A stretch of DNA of 64,000 bases, taken from Macrocybe gigantea. Taxonomy: Eukaryota > Basidiomycota > Agaricomycetes > Agaricales > Callistosporiaceae. Below, piece by piece: positions 5,248 through 38,264 of the stretch. The notes beneath the pieces were generated by a model, which saw nothing but the letters and a program-made list of their open reading frames with translations, made no database searches and had not been told where the DNA came from. Each line of letters starts with the position of its first letter. Position 1 is the first letter of the stretch. The stretch covers positions 62,001-126,000 of the forward strand of contig SJRY01000302.1 in NCBI GenBank assembly GCA_011319805.1, written 5' to 3'. Made by a program: the position numbers and the translations under genes.

Positions 5248-6762
5248 TGAAATCAAGCCTTGAACTGTGCCTCCCTATCGTCCTTTCTCACATCGCCGCC
5301 AGGATGATACGACCAAAGAGACGTTGTATGGTCGGAAACTTTATTTTGCGTATGCTATGTATTCAATGCCTTTTATGACCGTGGCGAATGCTTCTCATTT
5401 TTATTGGAAACGTTGTATGACAGATCCGATGTTATTTTCACCTTGACATGTAGCCTTGCTTTAAGTATTGACGGGACAACCCAGTGATCCATTACGCTTT
5501 TGGTTATCTCTATACAGGCACCAGTAGAGCATATATTTTATAGATTCTCCACTATATATCATTGAATACGTTCTAAATTGCACTGCGATTGAATGAGAGG
5601 CGTACACGCTGAACGTAAGCCGATTGTTTTGGGCCCAAAACAAAACCCGACACTTGAGGCGATTTCATCCCCGACGACGACGGGTGTTTCTTGGATGTCT
5701 CCCTTCGAACGGCGTGAACATTTTACAATCCGTAGTCGGAGCCGCCACGGAGGATGTTGGGAGAGCACATCACTTGGGCCTCGCCCCGGCTGTGGCCAGG
5801 CGGTGAGCCCTCTGTCGATCTCAGCACTTGCTTTGAAGCCAAGACACGGGCAGCAGAAACCGATTCAAGGGCTCGATAGTCCTCTTGGAATCTTTCCGAT
5901 GTTTCACGTTCTATGCGTTGGCACATTAAACGAGACACCAGTGCCGCCGCGGAACACGGATTGTCTTGCATACAACTCGAAGGCGCATTTGTCTCGTCTT
6001 CACATATGCACTTGTTTGGAGTGGATCTGTGAAGAGCACTTTTTGTCTGAGCATATTCTGGTTCTCTGGTTTGATGATGACCGGAATGAATCCAAGGCGA
6101 CTCATACCAAGTTAGCATCACCTGTAAACCAAAATTAGACGACTCCTAAGCCAAAGTCCTTTCTTAGGCTTCGACGGTTCTCCTTCAAATGGTTCACGGC
6201 GTTTTGTTCACTCAGATCAACCGTCGCTGACACTAAAAACGTAGGTTTTGTATTTAGGTGAAACGTGGTAAAAGCGTTCCGTCGTTCTCTAATCATTCGA
6301 CCCTGTTTCTGGACTTGAAGATCTGTTAACTTCCCCCCCTCCCTAACGAACACCTGCGTTCTCAAAATGCGGATGCTACGTTCATATGTTAATGAACTCG
6401 TCCAAAGGTCGATGAGATGTCATCAACGTTGGTGGACAGCGAAATCCTCTTCGCGCCTGGCGAAAGTATGTAGCTTGGGAAAACGATCTCCGAACTCAAA
6501 GCGGGCGGATATACTGAGGGACCGATAAACGCGCGTGGTCGTCTCTATTCTTGGTCGGAGAGTCTAAGTATAGCTTGCATTCTTTCAAGCGGGTACACGA
6601 CTGCGCACATGGACGGCACGGATGAAGGTAGGTACTTCCATGCTGCGCTGACCAGCTTGCGAATTCACGGACTCCGCTGCATGTGCATAGCGGGATGATC
6701 GCCTGCGTAGAGTAAATTCCAACACTTGCAATTGAGAGCGAGACATCTCCCTGAGTTGAAGC
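5248..6762. other. intergenic with no clear gene
   Basis: I find no recognisable domain here. A minus-strand open frame around 5723-6121, with a helical Arg/Glu-rich part, is the best candidate but has no support. The 3' region of the WD40 gene (5250-5550) is A/T-rich, as expected of a trailer. Confidence 0.4.
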
Positions 6763-6770
6763 TATAAAAG
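6763..6770 (+). promoter_or_regulatory. TATA box of cationic peptide gene A
   Basis: TATAAAAG lies 60 bp before the ATG at 6823. Equivalent boxes precede the other two copies, which supports all three as real transcription units. Confidence 0.6.
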
Positions 6771-6822
6771 ACCATGGGAGACTGAGTGTCCTAGCAGGTT
6801 CATACCTATTCACATCTCAACA

Positions 6823-7076
6823 ATGAAGTTCTCTATCTTCGCTCTTCTCGCTATCCTCGGCATGGCCATGGCCACGCCCGAGCCCATCGGCGACGACGCC
6901 GACCTGGAGGCATGGCACAACTCTTCTGGCATCACCTGGTTCACTGACTGTCGCCATGTTTCTAGCTGAGGTCTCCGGAGCCTGAACCGGAGCCCGAGCC
7001 GCGCCGCAGGAGGAAGGTCAAGCATCGTAAAGTCAAGCACCGTAAGGTCAAAAAGCATGGCAAGAAGCGTCACTAA
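6823..7076 (+). CDS. secreted acidic-basic small protein, copy A
   Basis: Exon 1 (6823-6909) encodes a signal peptide MKFSIFALLAILGMAMA followed by TPEPIGDDADLE. Exon 2 (6966-7076) starts LRSPEPEPEPEP and ends in a Lys/Arg/His tail containing three near-identical 5-residue units (KVKHR, KVKHR, KVKKH; 7014-7058), then GKKRH. The product is 65 aa, about 48 after signal removal. The 56-nt intron (6910-6965) starts with GC instead of GT but has a CTGAC branch site and a TTTCTAG acceptor. Reading through it gives a stop at 6967. Exon boundary, phase and the [LVI]RSP[ED]P motif match copies B and C, which fixes the model. I know no family for it. An antimicrobial, polyanion-binding or processed-precursor role is only inference. 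Confidence 0.8.
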
Positions 7077-8193
7077 GCGTTTCGCGCTGATCGTGACCGG
7101 ATGGGCGGCGAAGACATTCCTTTTTGTTCGTGAAGGATTCAGTCTGTACACTTTTAGCTCCCATCTTGTTGTACAAAAGTCGTAACGTTCGTCAATCGAC
7201 GAAAATTATATGTGAATCATAACAGTGTTTGTCAAACCCATCGTGTCGTACGGTCGTTGATAGTTCCTGTCTATTAACTCAACGATGGGCATCATCAATG
7301 AAATTTCGCAGCACAGCGTGACAACGCAGGACGACTGCCATAGGTAGACTGCTGCCCACATACTTGGAGACGGGCTTGCCAAAATCCGATAAACATTCCG
7401 GGAACCGATGCGTGACCGCGCAGTGGACTTCTTAGATTGGACTTCCGATTGTATGACTAGCCAACAACGGTCAGGAAGAGAGAAACGACTAGCCGCTTTC
7501 GTCCCCTTACATTTGGCTACCTTTCCAAGGAAAGCTGATCACGGACTACGAAAAGGCAAGTGTATGTTGAGTAGTGAAGATAAATTTTACATCAAAGTAC
7601 TCCTGGGTACCACGTGCCACGTGACTATGTGGCTTTCAACAATATCTACCACATGAAGCAGAATCTGCTTAGCAGATTGATAGACGGGAATGAGTTTTTG
7701 ATGGCGCAAGAACGCTACCTATGCCGCAGAACGGACCAAACAAAGGTAACGATATGTAGCCCAATCCATCCATTTACATCGAGGACCTTGTTCTAGAGGG
7801 TGGAACGTTGGTCCTTCTGAGATATTTGGGGATTTGATCTCTCAATGAACCGATCCCGCTTTGCGAAATTTGGGTGGGAGCGCAGCTGGTTCAGATTTGG
7901 AGAGCTACAGAAATGGTGTCTAAGGCCAGAATCATAATATAATCACTAGCCTTTCCCGGAACGCTTGAACAAGCGGGGACAGTAGGGCGACTTTCGCAGT
8001 CCAGCGGGACGGAGAGAAAACATACGAAGACATTTGCCAACGTCCCAAGCGGAATCTACGGACAGGAGTGCTTGAATCATAACAGGGGCCAAGAATTGCC
8101 TTCAGCCGCGGATGAAAATATTCGGACGGAAGTAGCGTAGCGACTCATTCGACTACGCGGAATAGACAGGTAGTTGCGATGGAGGTGATTCGC
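7077..8193. other. spacer between peptide genes A and B
   Basis: This is about 1.1 kb without a recognisable gene. I looked for a fourth, decayed copy (MK[FL] signal, RSP motif, basic tail) and saw none. Confidence 0.5.
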
Positions 8194-8200
8194 ATATAAA
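8194..8200 (+). promoter_or_regulatory. TATA box of cationic peptide gene B
   Basis: The sequence ATATAAA, continuing into AACCCC, lies about 65 bp before the ATG at 8260, the same arrangement as in copy A. Confidence 0.6.
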
Positions 8201-8259
8201 AACCCCGCGCTGGTTGTCCGTTATCCTTCAGGTCAATTGTCTGCCTACAAAAAGTTAAC

Positions 8260-8521
8260 ATGAAGTTCGCCGTTCTTGCCATTCTCGCCCTCATCAGCGG
8301 TGTTCTTGCAGACCCCATGATCGGGGACGCAGAGGCCTTGGAGGTATGAGCTATGGTTGACTATGCTCCTTTAAGCTGACGTTTCGCTGTCTGGCTAGGT
8401 GAGGTCCCCAGAGCCCGCTTCTGAAGGTAGTCGAGGCGGACACGGTCGCCGTCGGAAGCACAACAAGCGCCGAAAGCACAAGCACCGCAAAATGAGACAC
8501 CACAAAGGCAAGAACTGGTGA
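8260..8521 (+). CDS. secreted acidic-basic small protein, copy B
   Basis: Exon 1 (8260-8343) encodes the signal MKFAVLAILALISGVLA and then DPMIGDAEALE. A normal 55-nt GT-AG intron follows (8344-8398). Exon 2 (8399-8521) begins VRSPEPASEGSRGG and continues as a 26-residue tail made almost only of Arg, Lys and His, ending KGKNW. The product is 68 aa, about 51 mature. It shares with copies A and C the 17-residue signal, the acidic pro-part ending LE at the exon edge, the phase-0 intron and the RSP motif. There is no cysteine, so it is not a defensin-type peptide. Kex2-like sites (RR, KR) are abundant in the tail. Function unknown. Confidence 0.85.
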
Positions 8522-9177
8522 AGGGCTCGTAGAAGCAGAACGAAAAGTGGCGTTCAAGACGTTGTTCATTTTTAGCGTATTGCATCACATACAATTGTCT
8601 TCGATTCGCGATGTTTCCTTTGAAAAACTTGAGTTGTCGCTATTACTCATGTATCTTCCAATTGATTCGTGCCTGACCCACGTTGCATCGTCATTCCTGA
8701 AAACAGCGATCGACAATAAGAGATATTAATAGGCGCGAACGGACGACTTGGCGATTCACCTTTTGCACTTTGGGAAGGTGAGTGATGAGTGAAGATCAGA
8801 CGCTCCACGCTGATGAAGGCGAGACGAAACTGAGTCTCTCCAGAATAACTACAGGTGTCCACGATGGTGATGATGTAGTGTCGCTGAACCTCATGCTAAT
8901 AGGAGGCGTCGTGGTCAAGTGTGAAAGAACTAGGGTTGTCTGAGCCAGTGATGACGAGCTGACGGCCATGAAGGATGTGGCATGAATTCAATCAAGGGCG
9001 GAAACGGGGAAGGATGCGCGACAGTCTTAGGACGCCGTCCTATGGCGTGATCCCAGAAACCGACTTTGATTGAGAGACACACCCCAACGGAGTACGGAAA
9101 ACCTTCTACAGCATACGGCGTCCGTGGGCCATAGGTATCACCATGTTTATACCACAAGTTTAGCGCATATTCGGCGA
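8522..9177. other. spacer between peptide genes B and C
   Basis: It contains no recognisable gene. It should hold the B trailer and the promoter of copy C. Confidence 0.5.
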
Positions 9178-9186
9178 GGTATTTAA
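9178..9186 (+). promoter_or_regulatory. TATA-like box of cationic peptide gene C
   Basis: A GTATTTAAAGG sequence lies about 75 bp before the ATG at 9254, in the same relative place as the TATA boxes of copies A and B. Confidence 0.5.
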
Positions 9187-9253
9187 AGGGCATCGCAAAC
9201 CGCACTTGGTCTCTTCAGGTTGACGCCTACCTATCGAAACTCAATCAGTTGCA

Positions 9254-9520
9254 ATGAAGCTTTACATCTTGGCTCTCCTCGCCATCATCAGTGGCGCTAT
9301 CGCATCCCCCGGTGTTGCCGTGGACGAGGATGCCCTGGAGGTAACTTTTGCATATCGCTCGTCTACCAGTTCATCGATTCACCATCTTGTCGGATTGTGT
9401 TCATTCCTTTAGATAAGGTCTCCCGACCCTGACCCCGACCCCGACGTTGAGGGAAGGCGCCGTCGTCGCCGTCGCCGCCGCCGCCGCCGCCGCAGGCATC
9501 GCAAGCACCGCAAGTGGTAA
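9254..9520 (+). CDS. secreted acidic-basic small protein, copy C with poly-Arg tail
   Basis: Exon 1 (9254-9340) encodes the signal MKLYILALLAIISGAIA and SPGVAVDEDALE. The 72-nt intron is 9341-9412. Exon 2 (9413-9520) begins IRSPDPDPDPDVEG, followed by 14 consecutive arginines (9455-9496) and HRKHRKW. The product is 64 aa. The Asp-Pro repeat parallels the Glu-Pro repeat of copy A, so charge alternation with proline seems selected rather than one exact sequence. The arginines are coded mainly by a CGC repeat, a likely site of length variation. Exon layout and phase match copies A and B. The function is unknown, and free poly-Arg would bind nucleic acids, heparin-like polymers and membranes. Confidence 0.85.
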
Positions 9521-12500
9521 ACGGTTTCACGTCTGCGGTGGGGTGGAGGGCAGGAGACTCAGTTTCAATGTTGCGGCTCGGAACAGACACCTACATTCCG
9601 TGCTTCTAGACTCTCTTTTTCTCCTCCCCGAACAGACATTCCGCTCCCAAGTTGCCTTGTGAAAGACTTTCCTCTTCCCTTGATACAATAGCCCTGTCTT
9701 TACTCCAACGTGCACAATTGTCGAAATGTTCATGGCCTTGATCGTATAGCTTCGGAGAGTTGAGAAATGTGCAAAATTCCTCGGCTCGCTAGTTCGACAC
9801 GGAGAGAAGACTTCCACTCCAGTTCGAAGAATAGAACCACTAACGGGGATACCTGCAAGTATCATCAAATCGGAACACTGGATACCATATAAGCCATACA
9901 AGTCCGATGCGCTTCAACACGCGCGATGACTTGCCAGCGAAAACAAACAAAGAACGCGAGTTGCGGTGTAAACTAGTCCGTCTCTGGCTGACTGTGATCC
10001 AAGCCGCCAGACAGGGATCTGGAAGCGGCAGGTAATTGTGAGTAATATATCGGAACACTGATGCACGCCTTGCAGACCTTGAAGTTGAACGAGCGAACGA
10101 ATGCACATATCAAGTCGCGTGCAAGCTTTGACGCGCTCGCGCCGCCGACGATGGGCCACATGAATCGTAGCAGCTCGCGATTATTCATCATCGAGCCCTC
10201 GTCCCTGTCCCTCTAGCTCCCGCATTCGAAGATGCACAAGTCCTACATGTCGAGAGTAGAGTGGGTTGTCAGACGTGGTGCTGCGGAGGAGTGGACATTG
10301 GTGGAGCAGTTGAAGACAGTCGACTTTCAAATTCAAAGATGGATTGTGCCTGCACCGCAGATTGAAGGCCGATTGGCGAAAAGCTCTGAAGACGACTTGG
10401 CATGCCGAGTGGATTCCATGGTAGCTAGCTTGTCAGTTGCTCCCGAATAACGCTAACATTGCCGACCGAGGAAAGACTTTTTCACTGCTTTATCTAAATG
10501 AACGAGGTTGAAGGTCTATCCGCATGTTCAAAGCAGATGAAACACTTTTATTTCAACGAGTGTGATGTTACTTGTCATTTAACATTCTGTTTACTTTGTA
10601 AAATAGAAAGGGGGAAGAGCAAGAGAAATCTCCCAGGTGACGAATCCGACAATCGGGCCAATGGCCGAGAAGGCAAGATCACCGAATCCGGCAGGTGACA
10701 CCAAGGATGAAAAAAGAAATACAGTGTAAGGGCAGCGAGGGGGGAGGAAAGAGAAAAAAAAGAGCGTGCGCTGGTTTTGGGTTGCTTTCGAGGAATTGAT
10801 GTAAGGATAAAGAAAATCAAGAAAAGGGGAATTTTACAGCATCGAAAACTTTCTCATCTTGACATACGCTTTGGATAGCTGTGCGATGTACGTTTAGACA
10901 AGGAAAAAAAAAAGGCCGACTGCGATCTTGATGAGGATCTTGTGGCGTCATTGGGGCGGAGACCGGGAATGGGCGAAGTGCAAGCCGAAGGCATGGCAGA
11001 CGTGAAAAGGACCAAGTTCCGTCAACAATAGAAGGCAAAGTAAGACCACGGGGTGCACTGTACGTCGATGGCGTTTTTGAGTTGCTTATGTACAGCAGGC
11101 GGAGAAAACTTTCGTTGCCGAGAAACGGAAAAATAGGCGTTGTCTAGAATTGTTGTGTAATTTGCATTGCAATGCCAAGAGAGAAAAAGGAAGTTTTACG
11201 CCTGCATCCAAGTCCGTGTTATTCTGCTCGCATGATCTGTCAGCGCATGATGGCGTCGGGTGAAATGAAGAGGTTGAGGAAATCGGCGGAAGGCGACGGG
11301 GTTGGGGTCGGCAGGGGCTGTCAGTATGTCGGATCATGCAAGCAGATAAACAACCAGACGACTATAGACGCGGAACATGGGCGCAGAATGCGAGATTTGA
11401 TGCGAGTGATGGATGCAAAAGGTCATTAAGCATAATCTGGCGCAACCACTGGACCATTAGACACAGAATAAGAAAAAATAAAATAAAAAGCAGAATAAAC
11501 TTACAACTCCACCAACAGTTACACCAAGAAGGATGAAAGAGAAATAACACAGCGGGATCGTCGGCGACTCCCAATGAGAAAGTGGGTTGAGATGCGGAGT
11601 CGGGAAGGTAGATGAAGCAAACGGCCTTGTTATCCATTGATGCTGAAGGAAAGGCAAATAAGTGGAGGGGGGGATATGCCGGGAAGAAAATGAATAAAGG
11701 CGGCGAAGGAAATAAAATTAAGGAAGGAAAGCTATGAAAGCATTGGAGCCACCGAAGGTGCAACGCAATTAGCCTTGCCTCATCTAAGAAGCACGTAAGA
11801 AATACAGAAAAATGGGAGGAAACCAGCCAGTCGTAACATGAGGAAAAAAAAAAAAAAAAGGAACAAAAAAGAGGATGCATGCAAAGTTGTACAAGTGCAA
11901 GGGCCCTCCAATTTCGGGAAAGAAAAATAAAATAAAAGGAGTAGAATCAACGGGTGCGGGAGGAGTTGAAAGAGGCGAAAGGGAGTAAGAAACGGGGAGA
12001 GGGGCTTGTTGGAATTATTCGATACAACTGGGGTTGTCATTAATAAGAAGGGGGTGGACGAAAAGACGAAACACCTAAAACTATGATTCAAGTCCGCACA
12101 TACAAGATGAAGGGGTGCGGAGAAATATCCACGAGTTTGAAGGGAAAAGAAGACATAGAAGGTAGCCGAGAGAAGCTAGTCGCTCGCCGGGAGATGGCCA
12201 ACGAGAGCAAAGGGCGACGACAGCAGCCGAGGCGGACGTGGCGAGGGCGCTTGGGACAAAGGCAACCCTCAGTCAAGAGAAGCCAAACGAATAATAGTAG
12301 CCGATATATGTTAAATAGATAGTTACGATATGATTGCTGGAAGACCTCGACGGATCCACCACCTGGCCAAAATGTGCTGTGCATGGGCGAAGAATCGCTG
12401 TTGGTGTTCGTATGGACAATATGTGCACCAGGAAGGATAAAGAGACTTTGTGAAGCCGGTGTAAGAAAGGAGACTGATGTTACATCGATTTGACTTGATT

Positions 12501-13030
12501 TGGTCTTGAGAAGCGTTTGTCTTTTGACTCCAGAAGTTGAATAGAGATATATGAGGGATGAGACCCGAACCCAGGTTGAAGGAAAAAGCCCAAAGAGACT
12601 TTCGACAGCGTGCAACATGTGACAAAAACGAGGGGTGGCGCAGTCCACCGTGCCAAGGTTGAAAAGAGTGGCAGCGACCGGAGCGTGACCTTCATGAGTC
12701 GTCAAGAAGACGGGTGGAAAGGGCGAAGAGTGTGGGAATAGAGTGCAGTTGAGAAAAGACCCACGAAGGGGAGAAGGTGGGTCGGTCGCACGGAAAATGT
12801 CACCGAGAACACCCCGACTTTCGAAAGAAAAAAAAATCCAAACAAGGTGGAAGAACAATCCATTGAGGATCGTGAAAAATTAGCGCGCGGATGTCCTGAG
12901 AGCGATGTGATACCGATAACCGAATAAAAACTAGACTTTTGGACCAGTGACTTTTCTATACCTTTGAACACCGAATAAAAGCTAGTAAGCAGACTGACGA
13001 CACGCCCAAACAGGTAACCAACGTACCTCT
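9521..13030. other. gene-poor region with strong purine skew
   Basis: This is 3.5 kb without a supported gene. From about 10600 to 12900 the plus strand is strongly A/G-rich, with long A runs (for example around 11844-11859). The minus strand therefore gives Phe/Leu/Ser-rich spurious open frames. It may be trailer or pyrimidine-rich leader sequence of minus-strand transcripts, but nothing seen proves transcription. Confidence 0.45.
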
Positions 13031-14518
13031 TCACACGAACGTAGGATCAGGCAGCTCGTCCGGGCTAGGTGAATTCTGGAACGTAGAGCTCGCGAAATAT
13101 CCAGAACCCTGAGCTTGAAGCTGCGCATGGGCCTGCGCCTCTAGTTGCCTCTCCTTCAGGGAGCTCGGATTAACTGAAAGGGATGTGCGCAAAGGTCCAA
13201 AAGCGTCGGTAACTGCTTCTCCAACGGGCATGCCATGTCCACGAGGACTCGGGATAGTCGAGAAGGACGGAACTGATTGGCGTTTGGCCGGTTTCGGTGG
13301 CGACCTACGCTTGCCAGCGCCATGTCCGGGTGGAGCAAAGGCGGCGACACCGTTGTTGCGAGCCAGAGCAAAAAGCTTGGCTGTGTCAACTGACGTCGCA
13401 TCTTCACCCGAAGCTTCATCTGAGCTCATGTGGAAAACACCACCTTCGCTAGGAGAGCGTCTGTGATTCCTGCCGTGGCCTGCTCCAGTGTTGGCCTTGG
13501 ATGCCCGTTGCTTGCGAATAGGCAACGCACGTGGTTCAGTGGCAGGCTGACGGATCGTAATGGTGCGGGGGGGGTGGCAGGTGGCGAGTGACCGTCTGTG
13601 TTATTGGCAAAGTGATCGTTGTCTGAGTAATCACCGGCGTCCGTCATGTCGTCACAGATGGGGAAGTCCCATGCTTGGATGCGCGAGTCGTTAGTTACTG
13701 AGGATGGAATGGACTTGTGATTGCGTTTGGTGGGAGGTTTATGAGGCGGGAGAGGAACAGAACGCGAAAGCTGCTTGGTTACGTTCGCTTTGGTTTGGGA
13801 GGTCGGAATGGGAACTGGATGTGCATTGTTAGCTTGCTTTGATGCAGGGCTCTGATGGGTGTTTGCGTTCGTGGAGGAAGGGAGATGCTGGTGCTGATGA
13901 TGCTGCTGCCTCCTGCGAGCTAGCTTGCCTGAAGGTCGGACTGCCAGCATCGGAGATGTTTGAGAAGTAATGGTGGAGGAGACGAGGAAGGGATCGGCGC
14001 TCGATTGATCGCCGGAGTTAATTAACGTCGTGCCCTCTGCCTGCGAGGTACTATTGGCGGGGAGGAGCTGAGAGGGAGACTCTTGGCGGCGGGGGTGTCT
14101 ACGAGTAGAAACAGATTCGCTCCTGAACATAATTGGATGAAATGTGATCAGAAATTTTTCTGCAATGGCCTAAATACACAGGAATGAACAAAGATCCTCA
14201 CCTTGTGGAGGATTGTTGCTTGTCTTTGACTTGCCTCCCCCGGGCCGGAGTAGGGGTTGCGGGTGGCTGCTGGGTGTTGGCATTGTTATGCTTGGGCCCG
14301 GCAGGCCTTGTGTGGGCAACTGCTGCAGGCTGTGTAAGGCGGGGCGAGCGTTGCTGAGGCTGATGGCGGACAGGCTGTGGTTTTGATAAGGACAATAGGC
14401 CCGGTATTTTGGTGGGCTGAACCACAACAGCTGGAGGGGCTGATGGATGTCGACGGTGGTGTAGGGGGTGGTTTATGGGTGACATTGGAAAAGCAGGGGG
14501 TTTCTGAACCAGCATCAT
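13031..14518 (-). CDS. PNRC/EDC1-like proline-rich protein (decapping-activator motif)
   Basis: Exon 1 (14518-14202) starts MMLVQKPPAFPMSP. A 79-nt intron (14201-14123) is followed by one long exon to the stop at 13031. The protein is low-complexity, rich in Pro, Gln, Ser and His, and probably disordered. Its C-terminus YFASSTFQNSPSPDELPDP matches the short motif of yeast Edc1/Edc2 and animal PNRC proteins (Y-A-x-x-F...SPxPxxLPxP), which binds the EVH1 domain of Dcp1 and activates mRNA decapping. I infer the same role here. A G8 run (13567-13574) breaks the frame between SPPATPP and RTITIRQPATEPRALPIRK. One more base restores it, and no intron fits. The motif lies after the break, so the call depends on that reading. 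Confidence 0.7.
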
Positions 14519-34135: not shown

Positions 34136-36433
34136 GGCGACTCTTCCCGCCTAGCCTCTTCATCCGAAAATGTGAACTTGCCCGTCTTGCAGCGATGGAA
34201 TTATATGTATTCGTTAAATAAACTCCGGATACCGATGTATGGCTGTTGAAATGTCTTACTAGGACAATCGATGCTTACGGCTCCTACTGATACTGTTGAC
34301 TGGTTCAAACATCGGGACGAAGGCTTCGGATCCAGGGCGTAAGCCGGTAGGTAAAGTGCAGGCATACTCATCGGCCGATGACAGGGTCAAGATTGTGTAG
34401 TGTAACTGGCGCTACCGCACTCACTTTTGCCGCTCATGCTATAGCATTTATCTCCATTTGACTGTTCTCCATAAACGACACTGCCTCCGCTCCAGGCATG
34501 AATTTGTTCATTTGACTGCTTTTAGGCTAGTGCTTAGCGCTTTCCATGGCATAACGAGGCCGGATTGCTATATCTGTGATTGGCTCCTTAACGGCATCTT
34601 GAACAACATTTCGGCTGTCCCATGATTAGGTCTTTTTTGTCTTAATCTTTACTTCGCGGGAGTTGAAATCTTGGTATTAGGTCAGGGATGCTTGTCTCTC
34701 TTTCAATTTCATGCCAGTTCACAGAGGTCAGATCGTCAGTGCTCCGCAAGCGGAGGCCGTGCATGTGTACGTGTTCTTGAATACTCAGACTGGAAATCGA
34801 GCACGTTCCAGACGCATCATTCGTTCCTGTTGCGTCTAGCAAATGAATAGCGACGCTACTTTTAGGCAATTTCGGCGCGGGATGCATAAAGCCCTTTCGT
34901 TCTATGAATGGCAAACCCCATATGCCTGCATGCCGTATCCATCTCAAAATAGGTACAGAAAACGGAAAAGAACGATCGCCACTGACGAAAAGATCGGGCT
35001 TGAACTCCACAATGTCTAATCGTCCCTTCAGACTCGGCCCTTGTCAGCAGCTCAGAAAGTCGTTGCCTGGGACGTACGCGTTTAGATTGTAATTAAAGCA
35101 GGGTGGTCCAATCTGCCGCATCCGTTTTTCTGTTTTGATTATGCCAAAAGCAGAATCATGTGAGTGCTCGCAACGAAGTACTGTACCTCTTCTGTGGCCG
35201 AAAGGTTGTTCTTGGGCAATTCTGATGAGACACGGCGGTCCTCCTTTCAGGCAGCTTGATCTTATCCTCGTGTCATATTGCTAGCATGAATCCGTAGAGA
35301 CAACTAGAGGAATCAAATTCAAGGCTCCGAGGAAAGACGAACATGGGCGAACAGTTCCTCTACATAACGCCCTCAACTCAGGCACAAGGGATTTCCTAAG
35401 GCATACAGTTCGAGTTTAACTGAATTGAAATGGACATACAGGGACATACACAGATACACAAGACTCTGAGCCTCTCAGACCCCAATAATTCACGAGATCC
35501 ACATTTTCAGCTACGACTTTTCCCAGCTGCAGATTTGCCAAGCGAACGGAAATAAGACCAGGAATTTTGTTCCATCAAAGGAAACTTGGAAGAGAGGAGA
35601 GGCGGAATGCAACCGTTATGGTCTTTTTTAGAACGTTGACCTGCGCTCTGGTTCTGGCCGTAGCGTCTGGCTTCTCTGTTTATTCTGTCCATATTCGGTC
35701 TGCAGCGGCTGGACGCCGAGTCGGTGTTTCGCGTTTAATGACGCACAAGCCCGACAGGAGAACGATTATGTTTGCAACAATCGCGAACTGCAGCAGCGGA
35801 ATTGATAAATCACGGAAAAGTCTTGAGATAAGAAGGAATGACTCGATCGAGCCGACGTCCTCTGAAAAAGGTTATATTACCCTATCGTAAGTGACTTGGT
35901 CGCTTGACAAGTGAATTGCGGAGAGTGAAGGCGGTACCAGAGCGCATCGCTCCGAAGTTTTCGCCCACTAGCATGGAACGTGAACGGCGGAGTTGTGACT
36001 TGAAAGAAGAATGAGTGTTCGAAATGGCTTCTTCCAAGGATGGGGATATAGACGGGCCGAAACGAGTTGTAGTGCGAGCAGCAGCCTGGGCTCATCTTGG
36101 TGAGCTATACCATCACTATCTCAATCGTGACGCAAGATTGAAAATAAGAGATAAATTGATAAATAATACAAGAAAAGACGAAGGGTACAAGAGATACATG
36201 AATTCTGTGTATGATCTATCCGTCGAAAACATGCCAGAAGAACGGAGGAAAGCCAAATGTGTCCTTGTATACATGGAATGAAGTGAGAGTTTTTTTTTTT
36301 CATAACAATATGACGAAAACGGCGTGATACCAGGAAGGAAGGAGACCGGGATGGACAACCAGTGTCACATTTATCACAGCTGGGTCAGAAGGTGCAGGGC
36401 GGAGGCCAAGAAATACAATACGCTTTGTCCTTT
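34136..36433. other. intergenic region with one weak coding candidate
   Basis: Apart from the minus-strand candidate at 34642-35010, I see no supported gene. Plus-strand frames at 35567-35890 and 36015-36281 have no domain, poor context and no neighbours in frame. Confidence 0.4.
34642..35010 (-). CDS. possible hypothetical protein or gene remnant
   Basis: A 122-codon open frame reads like folded protein (DLFVSGDRSFPFSVPILRW, IWGLPFIERKGFMHP, SVAIHLLDATGTNDASG, STDDLTSVNWHEI). It extends upstream in frame to GPSLKGRLDIV before a TGA near 35045. No neighbouring exons were found and no family was recognised, so it may be a single exon or a relic. Confidence 0.3.
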   Translation of the reverse strand: MEFKPDLFVSGDRSFPFSVPILRWIRHAGIWGLPFIERKGFMHPAPKLPKSSVAIHLLDATGTNDASGTCSISSLSIQEHVHMHGLRLRSTDDLTSVNWHEIERETSIPDLIPRFQLPRSKD

Positions 36434-37897
36434 TCATGACGATGTCGATTGGATCATGACCTTGAGGACCATGTTTCCTTCGTCATCCTTTCCCTTGGCA
36501 AGTAAGTCAAAGGCTCGCTTGGCCTCCTTCAATGGTATGCGGTGGGTCACGATCTTGTCGACGTTTTTAAGTTTACCAGAGGCAAGGAGCGAAAGTGCTT
36601 CTGGATAAGTGTTGGCGTATCGGAACGAGCCCAGAATGTCGACCTCGCGCAGTGCGGCGCTAGAGAGGGGGAACATTGTGTTACGCGTGCCCATGCCAAT
36701 CAGCATGACCTTGCCGCCGGTGATGGCGGTCTACATCGAGGACAAAAGCAGATGAATGATCAGTTTTATGGCAATGTAAACAAAAACCAATAACAAAAGG
36801 AGGAATGGAAGACAGAAAGGAAAATGGAAAGAGAGAAGATGAAAGAGTGTCAGGGTTGGTACAGCATTGAGAAACGAAGACAAGACGAGAATAAACTCAC
36901 ATGAATGGACATCTGGATGATGGGCTCGGCTCCTGTGCATTCAAAGACAACATCAAAACCGTTCGGAGCATCAAAATGCGCTAACGCCGCCTGTGCAATT
37001 TCCTTAGCGCGTCGCAGTTGATCGTCGGGCGTCTTCGCCTTGTCCGAAGCAGCGGCCGGGGGCGTGCAGAATGTTTGCGAAGCAAAGCCGTGGGACATGG
37101 CAAAGTTGAGGCGGGTGGGGTTGTTGTCGATCGCGACTATGCGCGAGGCGCCTTTGGATCGGGCAAGTGCACATGCGAGAAGGCCGATAGCGCCAACGCC
37201 GTAGACGAGGACAGTTTGGCCAGCGGCGAGACCCACACGTCGAGAAGCATGGATGAGGACCGACAATGGCTCTGCGAGAGCACCAAGCTCAAAAGAGCAG
37301 TTGTCGGGTAGTCTATGGGTGGAAAACGAACAATCAAGGCAGGGAGGGGTCAGACGGGATGTTTCTTCTGATGGGAAATCAAAAGCGGGGAAAAGAAGAC
37401 GTACGGGTGAACGATATACGCGGGGTGGTTTACGAACTCCTGTAGGGTGCCGTCTGCATGAGGGAAAACGGCGGCGCTGCTACAGAAGCGCATGTTTCTG
37501 CAGAGGTTGTAGCGACCTCGTTTGCAGTTGTCGCAGGTACGGCAGTAAATACCGGGTTCGATGGCGACGCGTTGGCCGACGTGGACGCCCTCTACATCCT
37601 TGCCGACAGCAGTAACATACCCCGCAGTCTCATGACCAAGGACTAGGGGCCGGCGGACGGCAAAATCGCCGTTTCGGCCATGGAGAAAGTAGTGCACTGG
37701 ACAGAGGGCGTCAGTTGACTGAGCTGGCAGAACGAAGGAAGAGAAGACGGACTGTCGCTGCCGCAGACACCGGTGCAGACGACGGCGACCTGGACGTGGT
37801 TGGCCTGAGGCGGCCATGATGTGCGCTCCTCAAGGCGGAGGTCGGCGGGACCGTGGAGGACGACGGCGGAATGTGTGGGTAGGGCGACTGGAGACAT
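36434..37897 (-). CDS. zinc-dependent polyol dehydrogenase (sorbitol/xylitol dehydrogenase type)
   Basis: This medium-chain dehydrogenase oxidises a polyol with NAD. It starts MSPVALPTHSAVVLHGPADL. VVCTGVCGSD gives the catalytic zinc Cys, and RRPLVLGHETAGYVTAVG gives the zinc His/Glu. CRTCDNCKRGRYNLC is the four-Cys structural zinc loop. VLVYGVGAIGLLACALARSK is the nucleotide fold, with IVAIDNN ending in the Asp that prefers NAD. FDVVFECTGAEP and KVMLIGMGTRNTMFPLS follow, and the end is LKVMIQSTSS. Introns lie near 37743-37692, 37405-37316 and 36900-36733. It is divergent from an SDR gene; sorbitol, xylitol or L-arabitol are all possible substrates. Confidence 0.87.
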
Positions 37898-38264
37898 GGA
37901 ATGCGGGACTTGAAGAGTAGGTGAGCCATAATAAATATGAATAGGAGAAATAGTGAGATCTCGGTATGAAGTTGGGCGGACCGGGCAGCCGAAGAGGTAG
38001 CGGAGAGTTCCATGGCGTCTGCGCGTGACTCTCGGCTTTGCTCGTAGCCCGATTTGGTCATTCTACTCCTTTTGGCTAACACATCGTCTCTCCTCCATGG
38101 TAAATTTCATCCACATCGTTATCCCGGATCTCGGGACCGGTCCCCGCCTCCTTTTTTTTTTTGCTTTTTTTTCACCAGATCCATTGTAAAAAAGCCCATC
38201 TCGACACGACACACTCTCGTTCCCCCTCTCGGTCCTGATAAGCAGTACTGACACTCGCTTCGCC
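37898..38264. promoter_or_regulatory. shared promoter of the polyol dehydrogenase and SDR genes
   Basis: 367 bp lie between divergent starts. It includes a T-rich stretch at 38152-38170 and pyrimidine-rich leader sequence before the SDR ATG. I cannot name an operator. Confidence 0.4.

Follow-up and report, generated by a model that had tools for sequence, protein, structure and literature searches.

The stretch considered here is a 64-kb segment of the Macrocybe gigantea genome (G000:C300:62001-126000, from an assembly of 41.2 Mb in 333 contigs; hereafter the window). On its plus strand lie three neighbouring genes, g1 (6823-7076), g2 (8260-8521) and g3 (9254-9520), predicted to encode small secreted proteins of 65, 68 and 64 amino acids with an acidic front and a strongly basic tail. 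An earlier note on this DNA had placed the three genes, and all of its coordinates were correct on re-derivation. The plan that it described is also borne out. Each protein begins with a 17-residue signal peptide ending in A-x-A (ends judged by the -3/-1 rule for signal peptide cleavage), followed by an acidic stretch of 11-12 residues that ends in LE at a phase-0 intron. Exon 2 then encodes [LVI]RSP[ED]P, a linker that is acidic and rich in X-Pro (less markedly so in g2), and a tail that makes up about the last third of the protein and is 79-95% Arg, Lys and His by count, with 14 Arg in g3. Cys is absent from the three proteins, as stated in that note, and from all of the family members g1-g6 described below. 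The TATA-like boxes announced at 60-75 bp upstream were measured at -60, -65 and -74 from the ATG of g1, g2 and g3, respectively.

In g1, the TATAAA box (6763..6768) occupies the same place on C136, a contig that carries a second copy of the region. It is followed by a leader element, CAGGTTCATACCTAT (6795..6809), which is a looser form of the common CAGGTYRA..CCTAC element. Exon 1 (6823..6909) encodes the signal peptide and the acidic stretch TPEPIGDDADLE, and exon 2 (6966..7076) encodes LRSPEPEPEPEP, RRRR and KVKHR repeats. The 56-bp intron between them (6910..6965) is GC-AG, not GT-AG, on both contigs, a feature absent from the earlier note; it is retained on both despite a weak-looking donor, GAG|GCATGG. 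In g2, the TATA box (8195..8200) and the leader element CAGGTCAATTGTCTGCCTAC (8229..8248) precede exon 1 (8260..8343; signal peptide and DPMIGDAEALE), a 55-bp GT-AG intron (8344..8398) and exon 2 (8399..8521), which encodes VRSPEPASEGSRGGHG and a mixed Lys/Arg/His tail ending in NW. In g3, a TATTTAA box (9180..9186) and the leader element CAGGTTGACGCCTACCTAT (9216..9234) are followed by exon 1 (9254..9340; signal peptide and SPGVAVDEDALE), a 72-bp GT-AG intron (9341..9412) and exon 2 (9413..9520), which encodes IRSPDPDPDPDVEG, 14 Arg and HRKHRKW. Read without splicing, the g2 and g3 frames stop within the intron and the g1 frame stops just beyond its end.

The claim of a tandem family of three holds in that the small secreted proteins, acidic in front and polybasic in the tail, do form a real family, but the family is bigger, with at least seven loci, six of them intact. 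Searches were seeded with exon 1 of g1, g3 and g4, exon 1 plus linker of g6, and exon 2 of g4 and g6; among the matches listed, they returned only seven loci and their C136 copies, and these counts are lower bounds since distant members may escape such searches. The additional loci are g4 (C300:37251-37534, minus strand), about 31 kb before g1 in the same cluster and with a C136 counterpart, g5 (C3:45.9-46.2 kb), which is intact and follows the family plan, and the divergent g6 and g7 (C66:89.7-91.7 kb). Signal peptide, acidic stretch ending in LE, phase-0 intron, xR[SA]P and polybasic tail are common to g1-g6 (6/7 loci). The intact members have 64-73 codons in two exons and are spread over three contigs. 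In the motif xR[SA]P[ED]P, the R and both P residues are the same in all eight aligned sequences; this also holds for five columns of the tail. A C-terminal Trp is found in five of the six intact members. The remaining locus, g7 (L021:6377-6710, C66), is probably a decaying copy: its exon 1 frame is shifted before the expected donor site and its tail ends in DKDDDDC.

C136 carries copies of g1-g4, and those of g1, g2 and g3 have the same structure as on C300. We take the two contigs to be two haplotypes of one region and reject unrelated duplicates, since the distance between g4 and g1 is about 31-32 kb on both and their order is the same. Also counted against unrelated duplicates is that the GH7 genes, two in the genome and each on a pair of contigs, are likewise found as contig pairs with identical scores. 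Where exon 2 begins, g4 on C136 (L009:2882-3162) has a 5-base insertion. This would shift the frame if the usual acceptor were used, but not with a second AG that lies five bases further downstream; the site is possibly a tandem acceptor, or else reflects an assembly error.

The two haplotypes give coding evidence that a single sequence cannot. All 10 codons that differ in g1 are synonymous (11 changes, 5 in exon 1 and 6 in exon 2), with no amino acid changed. In g2, five synonymous and six nonsynonymous changes are seen (3 and 4 in exon 1, 2 and 2 in exon 2, of which 2 and 0 in the tail), and in g3, 6.5 and 4.5 (4 and 0 in exon 1, 2.5 and 4.5 in exon 2, of which 2 and 0 in the tail). Summed over g1-g3, this amounts to 22.5 synonymous changes in 140.3 sites and 10.5 nonsynonymous changes in 450.8 sites, i.e. 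a ratio of nonsynonymous to synonymous change per site (pN/pS) of 0.15 (Fisher p 3.3e-8, with sites treated as independent, here and below, and one haplotype pair compared). Because the differences favour synonymous change in the predicted frame, the comparison indicates that g1-g3 are real coding genes. In addition, changes lean to third positions of sense codons, strongly in g1 (10/11) and more weakly in g2 (6/11) and g3 (7/11), so that antisense coding is disfavoured. Stretches of 18 residues with at least 80% Arg, Lys and His occur in the 64-kb window only at g1, g2 and g3, and none was found in any of 20 simulated 64-kb sequences with the dinucleotide frequencies of the window. In 12 other regions, comprising flanks and copies, all eight such stretches belong to the family.

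The distribution of these changes along the proteins is uneven. Signal peptides of g1-g3 show six synonymous and two nonsynonymous changes, and the segment from signal peptide to tail 8.5 of each (pN/pS 0.33, Fisher p 0.03). The tails together have eight synonymous changes and no nonsynonymous one (Fisher p 3e-6), with the linker/tail boundary set after the sequences had been seen. Adding g4, counted over exon 1 and the stretch from DGRRRR on since the C136 copy has its insertion before that stretch, brings the total to 30.5:11.5 (pN/pS 0.11) and the tail to 11:1; g5-g7, for which the searches returned no second copy, are left out of these counts. Given 8:0 in the tail against 8.5:8.5 in the middle segment, we call the tail the most guarded part: within each gene it appears to be the most constrained region, though tails differ between paralogues. 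The earlier picture of a conserved exon 1 and a freely varying exon 2 therefore has to be revised, as paralogous tails do differ and yet the strongest constraint within a gene falls on them; a free-running tail was rejected on the 8:0 count.

The loci also share promoter features, although, the loci being paralogues, this similarity is not independent evidence. TATA[AT]A or TATTTAA is found 60-81 bp before the ATG in 10/11 family copies, that is at 6/7 loci, the exception being g6 with TATAAG. For comparison, a TATA-like box at -85..-50 is present at 23 of the 2368 ATGs in the window, g1-g3 included. Between TATA box and ATG, the leader element (approximately CAGGTYRA..CCTAC) is present in g2, g3, g4, g5 and g7, looser in g1 and not found at g6 when the upstream regions of the family were compared. 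The combination suggests regulated, possibly strong, expression.

That the genes belong to no known family, as first noted, agrees with our searches, which gave no convincing match in Pfam, NCBIfam, PDB, Rfam or 5.8 billion proteins. The best E-values were 0.041 for a Pfam scan of g1-g5, 0.0043 for an NCBIfam scan of eight sequences of g1-g6 (to TonB, in one of the eight, and judged compositional) and 0.079 for a PDB search with a g1-g5 profile, which gave weak matches to the Arg-rich stretch of Rev; Rfam gave no match in window positions 6000-10500. Protein searches with the family alignment returned seven matches with E up to 1 (best 6.2e-3) and 13 with E up to 10 (best 5.8e-4), and an alignment of exon 2 alone gave none at E 10 or better. 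The 13 proteins (P0001-P0013) are small, mostly with an apparent signal peptide, have KHRKH-type tails and no Pfam domain listed. They were rejected as homologues and considered compositional matches, as they lack the acidic X-Pro segment leading into an Arg run; they are probably bacterial and convergent. Against this verdict, the best match, P0005 (E 5.8e-4), passes the usual 1e-3, and P0007 holds RSPEP where its close relative P0005 has QGPEP. We suppose that few spliced fungal genes are represented in the protein database. No account of such a gene family was found among the titles and abstracts of the literature matches listed, and the retrieved passages that contain family sequence strings all concern a synthetic KH peptide or its hybrid.

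At the level of the gene models, a single plan and a single intron position can be considered established, along with promoters that resemble one another and purifying selection that acts most strongly on the tail. We further propose, with a probability of about 0.4, that the family encodes secreted Cys-free precursors in which the acidic part restrains a cationic peptide that is cut free at the Arg run and acts on polyanions such as bacterial envelopes. The common plan comprises signal peptide, acidic segment with X-Pro pairs, a run of at least three Arg and an Arg/Lys/His tail usually ending in Trp. The charge between signal peptide and Arg run is -4 to -8 in the six intact members, and that of the precursor tail +14 to +19. 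As the precursor enters the secretory pathway, its acidic segment would keep the cationic part in check. Cleavage by a Kex2-type protease would follow at the Arg run of the acid/base junction, the X-Pro pairs might be trimmed by a dipeptidyl peptidase, and the peptide set free would be highly cationic and for the most part unfolded. Outside the cell, the peptide would bind polyanions, most likely those of bacterial envelopes (lipopolysaccharide, teichoic acid), and would serve in defence or competition by coating or weakening bacteria rather than by forming pores. Pore formation is thought unlikely because the tails have almost no hydrophobic residues; coating, aggregation or polyanion binding would be more plausible than classic pores.

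Several features fit this processing scheme. RRR or longer stands at the acid/base junction in 6/6 intact members (3-14 Arg), hence a dibasic site ending in Arg, as expected of Kex2-type processing at a pro/mature junction, is found in all six. After the Arg run of g4, no KR or RR occurs in 23 residues, where shuffling predicts 3.95 (0.1% of shuffles reach so low a count); in g6 there are two, against 4.78 predicted (2.9%). The junction is therefore the only KR/RR site in g4 and the main one in g6. The genome contains P-domain (Kex2-type) matches and genes of the dipeptidyl peptidase IV (DPPIV) type. Kex1-type carboxypeptidase removes C-terminal basic residues, and the C-terminal Trp could block such trimming. 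The g4 tail also holds, in a row, 11 of the 12 residues of the synthetic KH peptide KKHRKHRKHRKH, the Pseudomonas-binding part of G10KHc in excerpts of PMC9954637 and PMC7221689 and, in the work of Eckert et al. as retold in a passage of PMC9954637, the sole selective Pseudomonas binder of a peptide screen. In PMC6057973, a cationic peptide lost all of its antimicrobial activity under an acidic deca-Glu pro-peptide. The masked-cation and antimicrobial or polyanion-binding function put forward earlier stays an inference, now with a concrete processing model and a tested synthetic look-alike.

A number of points weigh against this proposal. No clear KR/RR depletion past the junction is seen in g1, g2, g3 and g5, so that no uniform rule emerges, and in g3 a Kex2-type enzyme could cut throughout the Arg run, leaving perhaps only HRKHRKW. 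The charge of the tail exceeds that of the acidic segment in every member; masking would therefore be only partial. Moreover, the deca-Glu pro-peptide worked without signs of complexation, through a conformation change and further effects, in PMC6057973, and simple charge masking is therefore not what that model showed. The KH peptide comes from a synthetic screen and is not a natural gene product; it is used as a binder to aim other peptides (excerpts of PMC9954637 and PMC7221689). According to a passage of PMC8558516, P-6, a hybrid that carries the KH peptide, killed Gram-positive and Gram-negative bacteria alike, and one of PMC10089256 reports no strong action on P. aeruginosa of the KH peptide with an antisense peptide nucleic acid. 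Chance similarity between simple repeats may account for the match to g4. Disulfide bonds often stabilise the known fungal defence proteins (excerpts of PMC6272156), and this family has no Cys; Cys-stabilised fungal defensins such as copsin are likewise small secreted cationic peptides in that source, but membership among them was rejected for the same reason.

Honeybee promelittin-type precursors, as reportedly described by Kreil in 1980, are said to have an acidic X-Pro/X-Ala run before the cationic peptide, removable in dipeptide steps by a DPPIV-type enzyme. Here too, an acidic X-Pro run precedes a cationic peptide and a DPPIV-type gene is present in the genome. The X-Pro pairs reach the Arg run in g1 (SPEPEPEPEP before RRRR) and are interrupted near their end in g2-g6. 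The mature peptide of the promelittin type is amphipathic, with hydrophobic residues, whereas the six tails here are 79-97% Arg, Lys and His, have no amphipathic hydrophobic face and follow an Arg run at the junction.

Among the other readings, an unlikely one is that the peptides stay at the cell surface as matrix or wall polycations, where, in the manner of silaffins, they would serve as cross-linkers or templates for mineral or for acidic polymers (polysaccharide, polyphosphate, extracellular DNA). The diatom silaffin-1 precursor sil1p has the same outline of an acidic segment followed by a basic one, with repeats and dibasic motifs, in excerpts of PMC3820600. Bulk production would be well served by several paralogues with TATA-like promoters, and selection on the tail fits too. 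However, sil1p as described there is far longer, at 265 residues, carries RIL/RNL cleavage motifs and seven repeats, each of 19-33 residues, and has no apparent sequence relation to the family; no RIL/RNL motif, and no Leu or Ile, is found in any of the six tails, hence membership among silaffins was rejected, and nothing in the data ties the family to mineral or matrix. Unlikelier still, in our view, is a host-directed effector whose Arg-rich tail would carry the peptide into plant or animal cells and their nucleus. A small secreted family with Arg/Lys-rich tails compositionally like cell-penetrating and nuclear-localisation sequences would suit it, as would the weak PDB matches to Rev (E 0.079 or worse), but several neighbouring genes look like housekeeping genes and the tails are conserved between haplotypes instead of diversifying. 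The DELD effectors of Serendipita (Piriformospora) indica are also small, secreted, said to be species-specific and rich in the basic residue His in excerpts of PMC3192844; they differ in their 101-135 amino acids, regular His/Ala and C-terminal RSIDELD, and membership was rejected since the g1-g6 sequences have neither that end nor the regular His/Ala.

It is also conceivable, though improbable, that the acidic X-Pro segment itself forms the product, with the tail serving in trafficking or processing and then being trimmed off. The many dibasic sites of g3 and g5 point that way, as do the departure of the middle segment from neutrality and the invariant R, P and P of its motif, although the tail has its own invariant columns. 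Between haplotypes, however, constraint is lowest on the acidic segment and highest on the tail, and the C-terminal Trp suggests that the end of the tail matters. Even less probable is a secreted disordered basic protein that buffers the surface against acid or stress. Bacterial acid-shock proteins offer a parallel, and some of the small database matches with KHRKH-type tails are perhaps of that kind; yet these share composition and not the acidic segment, and buffering would leave that segment and the Arg-run junction unexplained. Finally, GC-rich trinucleotide repeats could read as Arg by chance without there being any gene family. The g3 tail is indeed rich in CGC/CGT, but codons are mixed, change in the g1-g3 tails is synonymous only, and the six intact loci, spread over three contigs, have the same two-exon plan with similar promoters, which recurs on the second haplotype; the haplotype counts make such an artefact very unlikely, and we hardly reckon with it.

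Overall, as judged from its sequences, this is a real and easily overlooked gene family for which no convincing homologue was found, and its function as a restrained polycation acting on bacteria is a reasoned guess. Genes of this size, 64-73 codons in two exons, may easily drop out of gene sets when their tails are of low complexity, and sequence searches distrust them. If the peptides are released, they would form a Cys-free class of fungal secreted polycation comparable with the synthetic Pseudomonas-binding KH peptide: new at the level of the gene family, of a kind, the secreted polycation from an acidic precursor, that is already known. A bolder version, which we regard as a long shot, is that the fungus independently arrived at what a synthetic peptide screen also yielded: (KHR)n peptides that are secreted, released at the Arg run of an acidic precursor and settle selectively on pseudomonads or similar bacteria, perhaps together with PLL-like propeller lectins whose genes lie at 6-8 kb from two of the family's three regions. 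If this were true, paralogues with different tails would be a kit for different bacterial targets, and a Cys-free, fold-free branch of fungal defence would have been overlooked by gene callers.

The lectin genes belong to DUF346, with at least four loci in the genome. Two of these lie 6-8 kb from family members, one near g5 (L045:1597-2610, minus strand, C3) and one near g6/g7 (L047:6990-7952, plus strand, C66), and no DUF346 gene was found on C300 among the loci listed. Both proteins show a relationship to PLL2 and PHL, two lectins of Photorhabdus, with best E-values of 5.4e-36 and 8.8e-34. Because the two genes are 73% identical in DNA, the linkage, which was noticed after the fact, is explained equally well by an old joint duplication or by a common task. 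Elsewhere in the genome, 22 hydrophobin matches were counted exon by exon. Together with the two GH7 genes and a DUF6535 protein, they are consistent with an Agaricomycete.

In the first 23 kb of the window, 10 open frames gave four clear matches (2-oxoacid dehydrogenase acyltransferase, prenyltransferase alpha subunit, RRM and DUF6535), two weak ones (WD40-type and PNRC) and four without any. The DUF6535 protein is encoded at 1998-2417 on the plus strand (Pfam E 2.6e-6). Base composition stands out at window positions 10001-14000 and 36001-38000, with a GC skew of 0.21-0.23 and an AT skew of 0.12-0.25, while the other 2-kb blocks stay within about 0.16 of zero.

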